A stretch of DNA of 22,424 nt, taken from the IMG/VR virus record IMGVR_UViG_3300032287_002311, positions 1-22,424 of that record; one strand, 5' to 3'. The translations under genes were made by a program, and so were the position numbers. Below, piece after piece: positions 13,043-20,004 of the stretch (positions are counted from its first letter, which is position 1; every line of letters starts with the position of its first letter). Source of the stretch: a virus. The notes beneath the pieces are model-generated. The model saw nothing but the letters and a program-made list of their open reading frames with translations, did no database searches and was not told where the DNA came from.

Positions 13043-13084
13043 ATGAAACAAGTGACAACTGCATTGTCAGAAACGATTATATGA
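13043..13084 (+). CDS. 13-codon leader ORF coupled to the primase-helicase gene
   Basis: ATG at 13043 follows AAAGGAGGAG (13025-13034) at ideal spacing, the strongest ribosome-binding site in the window. The frame reads MKQVTTALSETII and ends at TGA 13082-13084, overlapping the primase ATG (ATGA). The primase start itself has no visible Shine-Dalgarno, so ribosomes probably load at the leader and re-initiate. The peptide has no run of one amino acid as in classical attenuators. A real short coupling ORF is more likely than a missed in-frame start, because the frame differs from that of the primase. Confidence 0.5.
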   Translation: MKQVTTALSETII

Positions 13085-15555
13085 GCGTATCACCACAAGT
13101 ACAACAACATCCCGCATCTGTTGATGCGTACATCCGTCACGGCTGGTCACTTGTGCCCATCCCTGCCGGCACAAAGGGGCCACGCACTCCCGGTTGGAAC
13201 CTTAAACCAAATGCTTTGAAGGCACAGGGTGACCTGCCTCAAGGCTTTGGGATTGGCCTTGCTCACGCCTACTCGGGCACGATGGCACTAGACATTGACG
13301 AGTGGGACAGCACCACCGTTGCACTTAAGCAACACGGTATCGATTTGCAAGAGTTGTATGATGCGAACGATGCTGTCATTGTGGACTCGGGCAGGGCTGG
13401 TCACGGCAAACTTTTGTTTAATATGCCGTTTGGCCTGACGCTGCCGTCTAAAAAGATCCTGATCAACGGTGTCACTGCATACGAGCTGCGCTGCGCTACG
13501 GCCAACAATCTTACGGTGCAGGATGTCCTGCCACCATCTATTCACCCAGAGACACAACAGCCTTACCGCTGGGCAGGCAAGGGGCACTGGACACGCTTAC
13601 CAGTGCTCCCGCAGCCACTGCTCGATCTGTGGCAAGGTCTGCTGGCGCAGGACAAAGAGCGCACGATTGGCACAGGTGAATCAATTGATGCCTCATGGGA
13701 AGACATCCGCACAGCGCTGGAAGCCATAAACCCTGACTGCTCTCGTGAGGAGTGGGTCACAGTGGGCATGGCGCTTAAGTGGGCTGGCGAACAGACAGAT
13801 CAGTTAGAACCTGCACTGACACTATGGAACGACTGGTCGATGCCTTCGGCCAAGTACCCTGGTGAGGGGCAGATTGTTCACCAGTGGATGAGCTTTCGCA
13901 ATGACAAGGCAACTGCTGTCAAACTAGGATCCCTTTTCCATATAGCCAAACAACACGGATGGGTGCGCCCTATGCCTGACATTTCCACAATGTTCGCTCA
14001 AGTGGAGTCACCCGCTGACCCAAAGTCAGTCATCGTTGACCTGCGGCCAAGGCCACCGATGATGGATGTTTCTTTGTGGCCAGCCGTCATTGCTAGACGC
14101 GCAAACGAGATCGGCCAGACTGTTGGCTGTGATCCTCTTGTTCCCTTGTTCGCAGGCTTAGCCGCTGTGTGTGGTGTCGTTGATGCACGCACACGGCTTG
14201 AGCTGATCAAAGATTTTAAGGTTCCCCCAGTTCTGTGGCTTATGACCATTGGTGCACCAGCAGACAAAAAGACCCCAGGCTCTGCCCCCATGCTGGCCCC
14301 CTTAAAGCACCTTGAGATAGAAGACCGTCCAAGGTTTAGAAAAGAGATGCTCGACTGGGAAGGGCAGGAGGCCATGTTTGCCTCAAGCAAAAAGGCTTTC
14401 CTTGACTTCTCAGCATCACCCGAAGCGCTGATGGATACAAGCCAAGCACCGTCAGTGTTTGAGCTGCCACCCCAGCCCGTGCCCCTGCGCATTACCGTAG
14501 ATGACGTGACCAGTCAGAAGCTGGTGCGCTTGGCAGCAGACAGACCCCGTGGGTTGTTGTGCGCCTTAGACGAAATGAACAGCTGGGTTCGGAAACTTAC
14601 CGACAAGGCCAGTGGTGAGGATCGCTCGGCATGGGTCAAGGCTTACGAGTCATCAAGCTACGAGATGGATCGCGTAGGCAGTGGCTCGATCTATGCTGAG
14701 AACCTGGCCGTGTCGATTTATGGCAACATCCAGCCCCGTGTGTTCCGTGAGAACCTGCACAACCTGAGTGCTGACGGTTTGGTTCAGCGCTTTGTGCCTT
14801 GCATTCTGAACGGTGACTTGACTAAAAAGCCCATCGAGATCCCCGACTATCTGCTAAACAAAGACCAGTGGGAGCAGACCTTGCGCATCGTGTTTGCCCT
14901 GCCTGCCATGACTTACCAGCTCAGTCCCGAGGCCAAGGTTGCTTACCAGGCGTTCCAAGACTGGTACGACAGCAAGCGCAATGATGAGCGTTTACTTCAG
15001 TCTGACGATACGTTCATGACGGCCTTCGGTAAGTTGGAAGGCTTAACAGGCCGTTTGATTCTCATGTTCCACTTGATCGAATCGCCCTTCAGCATGGCAG
15101 TCAGTGCAGAGCTGACCCAGCGGGTGATTCAGTTGGTTCAATCTTATGTTGTGCCGGCGTATCGGTATGCACTGGCCGAGCTGAGCGGCTCGTCCAATTT
15201 CGATACCTGGCTGCGTGACTACATCATCCAGCACGCCGATGAGAGCACGATTACCATGGCCGAGATTAAGCGATCAGCACGCCGTCAGATCGAGAAGGTT
15301 AACGTGTGGCAACAAGACCAAATGATCTACGGCGCGATGTATCCATTGGAGAAGGGCAGATGGGTCATGCGAATGGATGACGGCACACGGGAGAACCAGC
15401 ACCACGCCCAGTGGGCTATCAATCCTGCGCTGGCTGTGCAGTTTAAGGATCACCGCAAAGCTGTTATCGATGCCAAGCAGCGCCAGCTTGACGAGATTTA
15501 CAGGCTGTCTAAAAAAGAAAAACCCCGTGTTTACGGGGCTGAGTTGTTAGATTGA
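13081..15555 (+). CDS. Primase-polymerase fused to DUF3987 helicase-like domain
   Basis: An 824-residue multidomain replication protein. Residues about 10-185 match the bifunctional primase/polymerase (PriPol) fold: LDID (70-73) with the two catalytic acids, SGRAGHGK (103-110) with the nucleotide-binding His, and YELRC (134-138). Residues about 204-295 resemble the PriCT_2 linker (WEDIRTALEAINPDCSREEW). From about 330 a DUF3987 domain follows, with a Walker-A-like GAPADKKTPG (391-400) and an acidic Walker B LLCALDEMN (492-500). The protein would make primers and unwind DNA for the family B polymerase. The P-loop has Lys where the usual second Gly stands. The gene is alone on its strand, with a leader ORF before it and terminators behind. 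Confidence 0.85.
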   Translation: MSVSPQVQQHPASVDAYIRHGWSLVPIPAGTKGPRTPGWNLKPNALKAQGDLPQGFGIGLAHAYSGTMALDIDEWDSTTVALKQHGIDLQELYDANDAVIVDSGRAGHGKLLFNMPFGLTLPSKKILINGVTAYELRCATANNLTVQDVLPPSIHPETQQPYRWAGKGHWTRLPVLPQPLLDLWQGLLAQDKERTIGTGESIDASWEDIRTALEAINPDCSREEWVTVGMALKWAGEQTDQLEPALTLWNDWSMPSAKYPGEGQIVHQWMSFRNDKATAVKLGSLFHIAKQHGWVRPMPDISTMFAQVESPADPKSVIVDLRPRPPMMDVSLWPAVIARRANEIGQTVGCDPLVPLFAGLAAVCGVVDARTRLELIKDFKVPPVLWLMTIGAPADKKTPGSAPMLAPLKHLEIEDRPRFRKEMLDWEGQEAMFASSKKAFLDFSASPEALMDTSQAPSVFELPPQPVPLRITVDDVTSQKLVRLAADRPRGLLCALDEMNSWVRKLTDKASGEDRSAWVKAYESSSYEMDRVGSGSIYAENLAVSIYGNIQPRVFRENLHNLSADGLVQRFVPCILNGDLTKKPIEIPDYLLNKDQWEQTLRIVFALPAMTYQLSPEAKVAYQAFQDWYDSKRNDERLLQSDDTFMTAFGKLEGLTGRLILMFHLIESPFSMAVSAELTQRVIQLVQSYVVPAYRYALAELSGSSNFDTWLRDYIIQHADESTITMAEIKRSARRQIEKVNVWQQDQMIYGAMYPLEKGRWVMRMDDGTRENQHHAQWAINPALAVQFKDHRKAVIDAKQRQLDEIYRLSKKEKPRVYGAELLD
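15511..15538 (-). terminator. Leftward Rho-independent terminator inside primase 3' end
   Basis: CCCCGT (15523-15528), GTTT loop and ACGGGG (15533-15538) form a 6-bp GC stem. On the minus strand it is followed by TTTTTCTTTTTT. It lies 40 bases past the stop of the leftward gene at 15578 and within the last codons of the primase gene. Confidence 0.7.
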
Positions 15556-15921: not shown

Positions 15922-15979
15922 GGTTGGGAGCCTTAATCAATGGTTGGATTCCTTAACCAACGGTTAGTTGGGAGCCTTA
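15894..15979 (-). repeat. Four copies of TAAGGCTCCCAACC
   Basis: On the minus strand the 14-base word occurs at 15979-15966 (TAAGGCTCCCAACT), 15955-15942 (TAAGGAATCCAACC), 15935-15922 (TAAGGCTCCCAACC) and 15907-15894 (TAAGGCTCCCAACC), with start-to-start distances of 24, 20 and 28 bases. Copies overlap the end of the XRE gene, the 42-base gap and the start of the 43-residue ORF. Two copies encode KAPN in different proteins. The role may be operator, RNA-level control or duplication remnant. Confidence 0.6.
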
Positions 15980-16245
15980 GTCAATTGTTTCTTAGGCCGT
16001 CCGGCGCTCTTGGTGGGAACGGCGGCGTCCGGCGGCGGCGTGAGTGCGGCCAGCACGTCAGGGGCCAGCGCTTCGAGCGTGCCCAGCACGGCCAGCAGCT
16101 GCACGGCGGCGGCGCTCGGCGCTCGTTGGCCAGCTGTCCACTTGCGAAACGTGAAAACGGGAACACCCAGCAGGCCGGCGGCCCGTGCTTCGCTCAGTGC
16201 CTGGCGATCAGTGAAGGCCAGCAGGTCGGTTTTGAATTGTGTCAT
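15964..16245 (-). CDS. XRE/HTH-type transcriptional regulator
   Basis: A 93-residue protein. Residues about 14-55 fit a helix-turn-helix of the XRE kind: DRQALSEARAAGLLGVPVFT (13-32), with the recognition helix at about 30-38 (VFTFRKWTAG), then APSAAAVQLLAVL. The tail AGRPKKQ (81-87) is an AT-hook-like minor-groove motif. GAGGATCC gives a normal ribosome-binding site before the ATG. It lies just downstream of a strong terminator, so it probably has its own promoter. Near-copies of the AACCCGCTGGGTT palindrome lie 31-80 bases upstream (16276-16286 and 16316-16325), and the TAAGG repeats overlap its 3' end. It is the best candidate for the regulator of the control region at 19.4-20.0 kb, by inference. 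Confidence 0.7.
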   Translation of the reverse strand: MTQFKTDLLAFTDRQALSEARAAGLLGVPVFTFRKWTAGQRAPSAAAVQLLAVLGTLEALAPDVLAALTPPPDAAVPTKSAGRPKKQLTKAPN

Positions 16246-16824: not shown

Positions 16825-17040
16825 TTAACAATCCCAATCTTCGGTAAAAATTCTAATGTTGCAGCAATCGGCGTGCGCTTTGTTCGTATGTTCGCGCACC
16901 AGGGCGCATATTGCATCGATCAATTCACGGTCGGCCAGGTCGGTCATTGTGAACATGGCGAAGGGTTCGATCTCGATCCCTTCGGGAGAAAATGCATTCC
17001 CCCGGTGAAACGTTACACGGGTTTTATCGTAGTGTGTCAT
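16825..17040 (-). CDS. Small hypothetical protein
   Basis: A 71-residue protein beginning MTHYDKTRVTFHRGNAFSPE, with three Cys in the second half (residues about 45, 59 and 60) and a fourth as the last residue. No known metal-binding spacing is evident. AAAGG within the last codons of the upstream gene precedes the ATG by 8 bases, and only three bases separate the two genes, so translation is coupled to the Cys-rich protein upstream. Function unknown. Confidence 0.55.
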   Translation of the reverse strand: MTHYDKTRVTFHRGNAFSPEGIEIEPFAMFTMTDLADRELIDAICALVREHTNKAHADCCNIRIFTEDWDC

Positions 17041-17043
17041 TGG

Positions 17044-17724
17044 TTAACCTTTCATTATTGGAATTACGCGCCGGGCCAGCGCATCAGTTACCCGGGCACG
17101 CGATCCGTGGGCGCGAAACCCGATAATTACCCGGCGATCAGCACGGGCGCAAAGCCCGCAGGTGGCGCAGGTTATATCCTCGCGGGTTTGAGCTGGGCAG
17201 ACAATGATTGTCCGGCCTTCGGGTGTCTCTGTCTTTTCCGGTGTATCCATGGGCACGATGCAAGTTAACGGGGCGCTTGATACGGCGGCCAGCGCGTCAG
17301 CTTCGCCGGCATCATCAGCGCTCAGGTTAACCGTAAAGCCCCAGTCAGTGGCGCATTGTGCCCAATATAGGGCCTCAGGGCTTTTTTTGTGGGTGTACGT
17401 GAACCCGCGGCGGCCACTGTTGGCCCGTACGATCTCACCCAAGGCGGCGGCGTCTACCTCTTCACCGGCCCCAGGCAGATCCCCGGCCACGTTGAACCGC
17501 CACAATTGGCCAGCGGGCAGGGCTTCGATTGACGCGCACAGCTCGGCCAGCGTGCCCCCTCTCTCGGCCACTTTGTCCCAGCTCATACGGGTGTAGTAAT
17601 CCTCAGCGTAACAGTCGGCCCGGTAATGGGGGCACGACTGGGGGCAGGTTTCCCGCTGGGAATAAGTAACGGGCAACGGGCCGGTTTTGCTGTTAGCAGA
17701 TTTCAAAATAAAATGGTATTTCAT
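17044..17724 (-). CDS. Cys-rich phage protein with CPxxCPxxxxxxCYA motif (DUF7227-like)
   Basis: A 226-residue protein I recognise as a widespread, uncharacterised phage family, recently named DUF7227 as far as I recall. Key features: KTGPLPVT (13-20), CPQSCPHYRADCYAE (27-41) with Cys27, Cys31 and Cys38, LWRFNVAGDLPG (74-85), GFTYTHK (107-113), VNLSADD (132-138), and a second cluster CPAQTREDITCATCGLC (176-192) with Cys176, 186, 189 and 192. Seven placed Cys suggest an Fe-S or zinc cluster. The CxxxCx6CYAE part resembles the gp37/gp68-like (DUF5131) phage family, where radical-SAM relatedness has been proposed; that link is inference. It is the largest protein of the small-gene block and overlaps the upstream acidic ORF (ATGA). 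Confidence 0.7.
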   Translation of the reverse strand: MKYHFILKSANSKTGPLPVTYSQRETCPQSCPHYRADCYAEDYYTRMSWDKVAERGGTLAELCASIEALPAGQLWRFNVAGDLPGAGEEVDAAALGEIVRANSGRRGFTYTHKKSPEALYWAQCATDWGFTVNLSADDAGEADALAAVSSAPLTCIVPMDTPEKTETPEGRTIIVCPAQTREDITCATCGLCARADRRVIIGFRAHGSRARVTDALARRVIPIMKG

Positions 17725-17885
17725 GATTCATCGCTCCCGTCGTCGGTGTCGGCTTCGGGTTCGCTTTCATCGTACGGGGCCTCGGGATCCCCAGGCAGAT
17801 AGCGCAGCGAGGTTAGCAGGCGGCGCTTAGTTGCTCGGTCTTCATTGGCCAGCGCTTCGGCCTCATCGTCGTATTCGTAGTGCAT
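17721..17885 (-). CDS. 54-residue acidic protein upstream of the Cys-rich gene
   Basis: A short ORF read by hand, ATG 17885 to TGA 17721, overlapping the Cys-rich gene start by 4 bases. GAGGTAA lies 7 bases before the ATG. The product starts MHYEYDDEAEALANEDRATK, has a basic middle (KRRLLTSLRYL), and ends in a strongly acidic tail (EADTDDGSDES). Acidic small proteins of phages often mimic DNA or bind basic partners, but nothing here proves that. The tight coupling to the Cys-rich protein suggests a shared process. Confidence 0.6.
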   Translation of the reverse strand: MHYEYDDEAEALANEDRATKRRLLTSLRYLPGDPEAPYDESEPEADTDDGSDES

Positions 17886-19444: not shown

Positions 19445-19472
19445 ATTGTAACCCAGTGGGTGAGCTTGTCAA
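19445..19472 (-). promoter_or_regulatory. Strong leftward sigma70-type promoter
   Basis: On the minus strand, TTGACA (19472-19467, perfect -35) and TACAAT (19450-19445, five of six) are separated by 16 bases. Initiation near 19438 gives a leader of about 50 bases to the ATG at 19385. The spacer is filled by the dyad AACCCAGTGGGTGA (19450-19463), one of the palindromes of the region, so a bound repressor would block RNA polymerase directly. Confidence 0.7.
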
Positions 19473-20004
19473 GCACAATCGATAAATTATTTACTAGGTG
19501 CTTTCCCTAACCCTCTGGGTTTCCCTGCTTCCCTTGGTGCGTCAATTGTGACTTACAGAAGGGAACGGGTTTCAGGATTTCCGGATTTCTTGTGCTGTTT
19601 CAAAAAGTATCAATCGGCCCCCTCGCCTGCGCGATGTCACAATTGACGCACTGGCCCCCGATCCCGCGAACCTGCGAACCCGCTGGGTTATTCCCTCACC
19701 CGCTGGGTTCCCGTGCCCATGGCCTGCGATCCCGCGAACCCGCTGGGTTTTGTGGCCACTGATTCACCCAGCGGGTAACATGGCCGCATCGATTCACCGG
19801 CGGCGGCCTGCGCCTAAGATCCACGGCGGCCAGCGATTCACGGCGGCGCGATGGCCAGCGGCCCGCGATGGCCGGCGGCGCAAAGCAGGATCCGTGCCAG
19901 TTGCGCGATGGGGCCGGGTAGGGCCGATGGCCGAGGGGGCCAAGACTGGGAGGTATCACGAACAATTTTTTATTTTTTTAAATTAACCCGTTACCCAATG
20001 GGTT
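19450..20004. repeat. Array of AACCCGCTGGGTT palindromes
   Basis: A short dyad with ACCC and GGGT arms recurs at 19450-19463 (AACCCAGTGGGTGA), 19509-19521 (AACCCTCTGGGTT), 19677-19689 (AACCCGCTGGGTT), 19697-19709 (CACCCGCTGGGTT), 19737-19749 (AACCCGCTGGGTT), 19765-19778 (CACCCAGCGGGTAA) and 19991-20004 (TTACCCAATGGGTT). The copies at 19677 and 19737 are both preceded by GATCCCGCGAACC (19660-19672 and 19728-19740). Arms are conserved and centres vary, as for a dimeric protein site. Spacing is irregular, unlike CRISPR. Confidence 0.75.
19537..19651. repeat. Perfect 16-bp inverted repeat pair
   Basis: GTGCGTCAATTGTGAC at 19537-19552 is the exact reverse complement of GTCACAATTGACGCAC at 19636-19651. 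The arms are 83 bases apart. Each contains CAATTG. They could form a cruciform base, be paired protein sites, or mark ends of a lost element. No gene lies between them. Confidence 0.75.

Follow-up and report, generated by a model that had tools for sequence, protein, structure and literature searches.

A 226-residue protein (P0001), encoded on the minus strand at positions 17044-17724 of a virus record, is a member of the DUF7227 family, and we consider that the proteins of this family are probably compact phage enzymes that work like radical-SAM enzymes, with a [4Fe-4S] cluster held by a loop of non-canonical spacing (CX3CX6C) and with a further site made of four cysteines. Here and below, the window means the whole 22,424-base stretch of DNA that was analysed. 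We do not file DUF7227 as a canonical radical-SAM member, because both the CX3CX2C motif and a match to the corresponding Pfam family are absent, and because the direct fold scores are middling. The chain of families leading from DUF7227 through GP88 and DUF5131, described below, is a stronger argument than the fold comparison of DUF7227 itself. Such a reading would make a specific assay possible, namely the conversion of S-adenosylmethionine (SAM) to 5'-deoxyadenosine. It would also tie three uncharacterised phage and bacterial families, one of which occurs in candidate defence loci, to one first testable chemistry.

The DUF7227 family and its seven cysteines

P0001 matched Pfam PF23872 (DUF7227) with an E-value of 1.9e-74 and 250.5 bits against a curated cut-off of 27 (positions 1-219/223), and PHROG 2554 (phrog_2554) with an E-value of 3e-44; neither Pfam nor PHROGs assigns the family a function. 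The gene is part of a leftward, minus-strand block of small ORFs located between terminase and primase-like genes. The terminase genes, assigned by eye and by the similar gene order in phage DSL-LC05, are divergent and run on the plus strand from ~19.85 kb, and the primase-like gene (13,081-15,555) carries Prim-Pol, PriCT_2 and DUF3987 domains.

The first-pass annotation, made from the letters of the DNA, had described two cysteine sets in the 226-residue protein (27/31/38 and 176/186/189/192) together with the motifs NVAGDLPG, TYTHK and NLSADD, and the translation of the ORF contains all of them exactly as described. It had also named poor conservation of the cysteines across homologues among the observations that would count against its reading, and this was not what we found. 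We aligned 58 sequences, comprising the window and 57 of the 73 viral loci retained for analysis, with 44-96% identity to the window, and all seven cysteines were invariant (58/58). The same alignment showed W75, R76, N78, G81, D82, T109, H112, N133, S135, P158, H206 and G207 to be invariant as well. P0001 has three more cysteines, at positions 63, 124 and 155, that the annotation had passed over, none of which is invariant. When the count was extended by pattern to 108 homologues (73 viral loci, 30 genome loci and 5 phage records, including distant ones such as Tunturi_1 and a Microcystis phage), both sets were present in 106; the remaining two are a sequence masked with X at the site (L109) and a broken sequence (L118). 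Across the 108 homologues, the spacing of the first set is CX3C-Xn-C, with n being 5, 6, 7, 9 or 13, and that of the second is CX8-10CX2CX2C.

The DUF7227 gene is under strong purifying selection, with dN/dS values of 0.036-0.118 in the six comparisons with relatives that were computable; the two further pairs involved L034, in which synonymous sites were saturated, and L020, which differs in length. Since P0001 matches PF23872 at an E-value of 1.9e-74, the seven cysteines are conserved and dN/dS is this low, we regard the observation as real rather than due to chance.

By tblastn at E <= 1e-5, DUF7227 was detected in 186 of 50,697 phage records, 166 of them from Pseudomonas phages. The carriers include Pseudomonas phages of the PAK_P1/JG004 type, cyanophages (P-SSP7), Curvibacter phage P26059A and phage DSL-LC05, whose homologue is 73.5% identical to P0001. 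A relative is encoded in 104 candidate stretches of IMG/VR, and the best 80 of these were retained; the 73 loci analysed here are these 80 minus seven that are fragments, split matches or a near-duplicate (L049, L056, L061, L062, L063, L077 and L079). Bacterial and archaeal genomes contributed 30 DUF7227 loci. In one of these (Pontivivens, L112), the gene lies beside a conjugation-type ATPase, a replication-relaxation-like protein and a fragment of a CHC2-type primase, identified by eye. These neighbours look like genes of a conjugative element, and the mobile setting of a Variovorax locus (L103) is less clear.

Among the phage matches listed (40 + 60 rows), the feature under the match was hypothetical or unannotated in every case save one. 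The exception, gp84 of Tunturi_1 (PP887698.1; positions 5977-6669 of L082), is annotated as 'DNA methyltransferase' and matches DUF7227 and GP88; no match that we saw backs the label, which on the sequence matches is probably a misannotation. In Pseudomonas phage PAK_P2 (NC_022967.1; positions 5001-5671 of L088), the DUF7227 match falls in two pieces on two adjacent ORFs, gp102 and gp103, owing either to a natural break or to a sequencing error, and a few other records also have two features under the match. A literature search, whose coverage took in few subscription journals and no preprints, found no mention of DUF7227 or DUF5131 and nothing on 'radical SAM mobile pair', 'phage-encoded radical SAM' or DUF5131 in combination with radical SAM and phage; passages in PMC12445080 and PMC12429752 did not bear on DUF7227.

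Relationship to GP88 and DUF5131, and the predicted fold

The first-pass annotation had suggested comparing the protein with radical-SAM and DUF5131 folds, and this hint pointed in the right direction, as judged by the GP88/DUF5131 chain, the fold list of GP88 and the match to a viral Gp37/Gp68-like model described below. The Pfam family GP88 (PF17338) was matched by 18 of the 58 DUF7227 proteins at E <= 0.001 (best 8.6e-7) and by 19 at E <= 5, P0001 itself giving no match at E <= 1. The two families are bridged by a group of eight sequences around Tunturi_1 gp84, which scores 32.2 bits on GP88 against a cut-off of 24.4 and matches P0001 at 2e-10; L148, whose matches resemble those of L147, was not placed in this group. 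Profile-profile alignment (hhalign) joined DUF7227 to the bridge group with a probability of 99.7%, and to 27 GP88 proteins, all Pfam-confirmed, with an E-value of 4.7e-5 and a probability of 68%. The latter alignment paired C27 with C58, C38 with C69, R76-x-N78 with R124-x-N126 and G81-D82 with S129-D130. Weaker values were obtained between the bridge group and GP88 (E 0.0084), GP88 and DUF5131 (E 0.072) and DUF7227 and DUF5131 (E 0.088).

DUF5131 (PF07505, Gp37/Gp68) was matched in Pfam searches neither by P0001 nor by any of the 58 members, and its link to DUF7227 runs via GP88, which 7 of 16 DUF5131 proteins matched at E <= 1 (best 9.4e-8). All 16 DUF5131 proteins in turn matched TIGR04471 at E <= 0.001 (best 8.4e-30). 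The name that NCBI gives to this family is 'radical SAM mobile pair protein A'. The DUF5131 scores listed reached at most 103.5 bits, far under the equivalog cut-off of 355, and the 299 genomes searched contained no TIGR04471 member over the cut-off. TIGR04471 is thus reached via DUF5131, whereas P0001 gave no match to it at E <= 1 and hence did not reach the curated cut-off.

Each family in the chain has a three-cysteine loop with a spacing of its own. It reads CX3CX5-13C in DUF7227, CX3CX6C in seven of the eight bridge sequences (the eighth has an insertion), CX6-7CX3C in 27/27 GP88 proteins and CX6-7CX2C in 16/16 DUF5131 proteins, in which it mostly ends with CYA. The commonest cysteine offsets are +0/+4/+11 in DUF7227, +0/+7/+11 in GP88 and +0/+7/+10 in DUF5131; those of classical radical-SAM proteins are +0/+4/+7. 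The first and third cysteines of GP88 align with those of DUF7227, whereas the middle one is at +7 instead of +4. GP88 also shares an R-x-N-x-x-[GS]-D motif ending the second strand and, in the models, a similar strand order. In DUF5131, we read the invariant D89 and a T-K-R motif (T in >=90%) as possible counterparts of the motifs at the ends of the second and third strands in DUF7227. A CX2CX2C motif in the second half of the protein is present in all eight bridge sequences, in contrast to GP88 (0/27) and DUF5131 (0/16). The second cysteine set thus occurs in DUF7227 and the bridge group only, which leaves the triad as the core shared by all.

An AlphaFold2 model of P0001 on the 58-sequence alignment had a pLDDT of 92.5 and a pTM of 0.90. 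Its strands (3-6, 19-22, 74-80, 106-111, 131-136, 153-157, 164-166, 172-175 and 200-204) mostly alternate with helices, and the fold is predicted with confidence to be a (beta/alpha) barrel. The three-cysteine loop follows strand 19-22 (beta1) and the four-cysteine loop follows strand 172-175 (beta6). The alternation implies that the barrel strands are parallel, which would put both loops at one face of the barrel, the C-terminal one. The annotators' proposal of a probable metal-cluster enzyme gains from this arrangement in the model, in which both conserved clusters would sit in loops of that face.

Fold comparison of the DUF7227 model alone is suggestive, not decisive. The first row in VIA-align was the pyruvate formate-lyase activating enzyme 3cb8 (Z 5.9, rmsd 5.4, 179 residues aligned, 1-223 onto 4-235), and QueE 5th5 ranked fourth (Z 5.5, rmsd 4.5, 145 aligned). 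At Z 5.5, the plain TIM barrel CutC scored level with the radical-SAM rows, and radical-SAM entries made up 7 of the 50 rows listed, all of them with Z below 6. Against the viral models of BFVD, the model retrieved DUF7227 proteins, then GP88 (first E 4.1e-4) and a Gp37/Gp68-like protein (E 1.2e-3). A model of GP88 built independently from the 27 sequences (AlphaFold2, pLDDT 86.7) supports the radical-SAM link, with Z scores that are low throughout. Radical-SAM entries took all of its top 15 VIA-align rows (Z from 5.2 down to 4.1), an entry of another kind first appearing at rank 16, and the best row was spore photoproduct lyase 4rh0 (Z 5.2, rmsd 6.7, 180 aligned). These rows comprise spore photoproduct lyase, TYW1, EpeE, viperin, BtrN, a radical-SAM methyltransferase and SkfB, that is, about seven distinct proteins, because several entries are mutants or complexes of one protein. 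VIA-align re-aligned about 1000 chains for this model, and the 50 of them listed as Foldseek matches, which include one radical-SAM protein (TYW1), give an approximate background for the enrichment. In Foldseek, neither the GP88 model nor that of DUF7227 had a PDB match at E <= 0.001.

Sequence searches against solved structures gave no match for P0001 (phmmer, E <= 10) and a best E-value of 1.8 for the DUF5131 profile. The best match of the 58-sequence profile was a short stretch of thioredoxin reductase (E 0.27), which we judged to be due to chance.

Proposed chemistry and competing explanations

In the proposed mechanism, the N-terminal triad C27/C31/C38 (17611-17646, minus strand, as are all sites given here) would bind a SAM-type [4Fe-4S] cluster in the loop after beta1, the free iron of which would bind SAM. 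Reductive cleavage of SAM would then yield a 5'-deoxyadenosyl radical. The site C176/C186/C189/C192 (CX9CX2CX2C; 17149-17199) after beta6 would hold an auxiliary [4Fe-4S] cluster or a structural zinc ion. SPASM or twitch auxiliary clusters likewise follow the sixth strand, and a three-cysteine core with a four-cysteine addition in one lineage is what we would expect of a SAM-binding cluster plus an auxiliary one. Radical-SAM enzymes carry a GGE motif at the end of the second strand. This place appears to be taken in DUF7227 by the invariant G81-D82 (17479-17484) with its acidic D82. Invariant residues mark most other strand ends of the model, as exemplified by T111-H112 at the end of beta3 (17389-17394; H112 invariant, T111 in >=90%) and by the invariant G202-F203...H206-G207 at the last strand (17104-17121).

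Compared with the pyruvate formate-lyase activating enzyme and QueE, DUF7227 is of similar size and likewise has three cysteines after beta1, and 3cb8 was aligned from end to end; it differs in having CX3CX6C instead of CX3CX2C, G-D for GGE and the extra four-cysteine set. The position of the triad after the first barrel strand is therefore that of a radical-SAM protein, whereas its spacing is not, although exceptions to CX3CX2C exist among radical-SAM proteins. None of the 58 DUF7227 members matched Pfam Radical_SAM at E <= 5. Alignment by hhalign to six mixed radical-SAM sequences, a small set and thus a weak test, was not significant for DUF7227 (E 0.47), GP88 (0.10) or DUF5131 (0.37).

These departures from the canonical pattern leave room for other readings. 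The protein could be a TIM-barrel-like zinc protein in which both cysteine sets bind structural zinc, the four-cysteine set as a knuckle, and which either catalyses a non-radical reaction or serves in binding. The CX9CX2CX2C set does resemble a zinc site, CutC scores nearly as well as the radical-SAM entries, and neither the canonical motif nor the Pfam match is there. We nevertheless regard this reading as unlikely, given that what is conserved throughout the superfamily is the three-cysteine loop rather than the four-cysteine one, that the leading rows for the GP88 model are radical-SAM proteins without exception, and that DUF5131 is linked through all 16 of its proteins to a family that NCBI names as radical SAM. 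Less likely still is a protein derived from radical-SAM enzymes that has become non-catalytic, its Fe-S sites binding or sensing a host factor during takeover. Its location in a short, early-type operon of small ORFs would suit such a role, as would the variable spacing of the third cysteine and a motif that departs from the canonical one, but the invariant polar residues at strand ends (D82, H112, N133, S135 and H206) resemble an active site, for which binding alone would have no need.

A further proposal, already present in the first-pass annotation, couples DUF7227 to the acidic 54-residue product of an ORF at 17721-17885 (minus strand), in effect a two-subunit unit. This ORF does overlap the start of the DUF7227 gene by 4 nt (ATGA), as the annotation had reported. 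Furthermore, an ORF that is acidic or charged overlaps by the same 4 nt in all 15 analysed loci in which DUF7227 is at least 92% identical. The ORFs are of two dissimilar sequence types, 3 like that of the window and 12 of the other type; the partial or split loci L062 and L077, considered for this ORF only, have the second type. Across the 73 loci, 72 of which include at least 400 nt upstream of DUF7227, homologues of the window's ORF occur in only 3, and other lineages have a zinc-ribbon ORF (11/73 loci) or other ORFs instead. The dN/dS of the acidic ORF against L006 is 0.21, a value derived from only 7 base differences. Since relatives carry different small ORFs at this place, the proposed coupling did not hold up, and a partnership of the two proteins seems very improbable to us. 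We read the acidic ORF as an ordinary ATGA-overlapping neighbour in compactly packed phage genes, replaced in most relatives.

Returning to a radical-SAM-like DUF7227, we can offer a rather doubtful guess at its substrate, which might be a nucleotide or a nucleic acid modified in early infection from the leftward operon. The guess is based on the genomic settings and on the fold neighbours, including spore photoproduct lyase, TYW1, viperin and QueE.

TcmP-like genes adjoin DUF5131 genes in L124, L129 and L136, where they are NCBIfam-confirmed, and in L126, L127, L138 and L139, where they were recognised by eye. The candidate defence models PDC-M30/M41 of PADLOC were matched by the DUF5131 protein of L123 and by the TcmP proteins of L124 and L136; DUF7227 had no match to PADLOC. 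This neighbourhood, which sets DUF5131 apart from DUF7227, would tie the superfamily to predicted anti-phage loci. It is attractive to speculate, albeit tentatively, that DUF7227, GP88 and DUF5131 belong together in a single superfamily of non-canonical radical-SAM enzymes, whose cysteine spacings are permuted and whose members act on both sides of the conflict between phage and host. DUF5131 might then work with TcmP in candidate bacterial defence, and DUF7227 and GP88 might help phages and mobile elements to counter defence or to modify nucleic acids of their own.

Gene neighbourhood in the window

No conserved partner of DUF7227 was found. Among the 18 minus-strand ORFs of the window that were queried, only DUF7227 itself exceeded 26 of the 73 loci; the loci hold at most ~3 kb per side (at least 1000 nt upstream in 68/73), so that counts for genes farther away are lower bounds. 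Two large ORF clusters besides DUF7227 (in 40 and 52 loci) were set aside, as we presume that most of their members are frames read out of register. A Cys-containing ORF of 71 residues (16825-17040, minus strand) lies 3 bases downstream of the DUF7227 gene, in agreement with the first-pass annotation. It has homologues in 5 of the 73 loci, and profile searches of Pfam, PHROG and NCBIfam gave no family match above cut-off. Another ORF on the same strand, of 93 residues (15964-16245), has homologues in 26/73 loci, matches phrog_2104 at E 9.4e-5 and shows a sub-threshold similarity to the MqsA antitoxin (E 0.018).

The zinc-ribbon ORF mentioned above, which carries two CX2C motifs, is located upstream of DUF7227 in loci such as L017, L027, L039 and L067. 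It overlaps the DUF7227 gene by 1-4 nt in 9 of the 11 loci, across homologues of 49 to 81% identity.

The intergenic region between the two divergent operons (19450-19776) contains several copies of a palindrome like AACCCGCTGGGTT, plus more half-copies. Six matches with at most one mismatch were found in the window, five of them in this region, against an expectation of 0.19. These copies look like an operator array. In addition, positions 19537-19569 and 19619-19651 form an imperfect inverted repeat of 33 nt (76%), the outer ends of which, GTGCGTCAATTGTGAC and GTCACAATTGACGCAC, are fully complementary.
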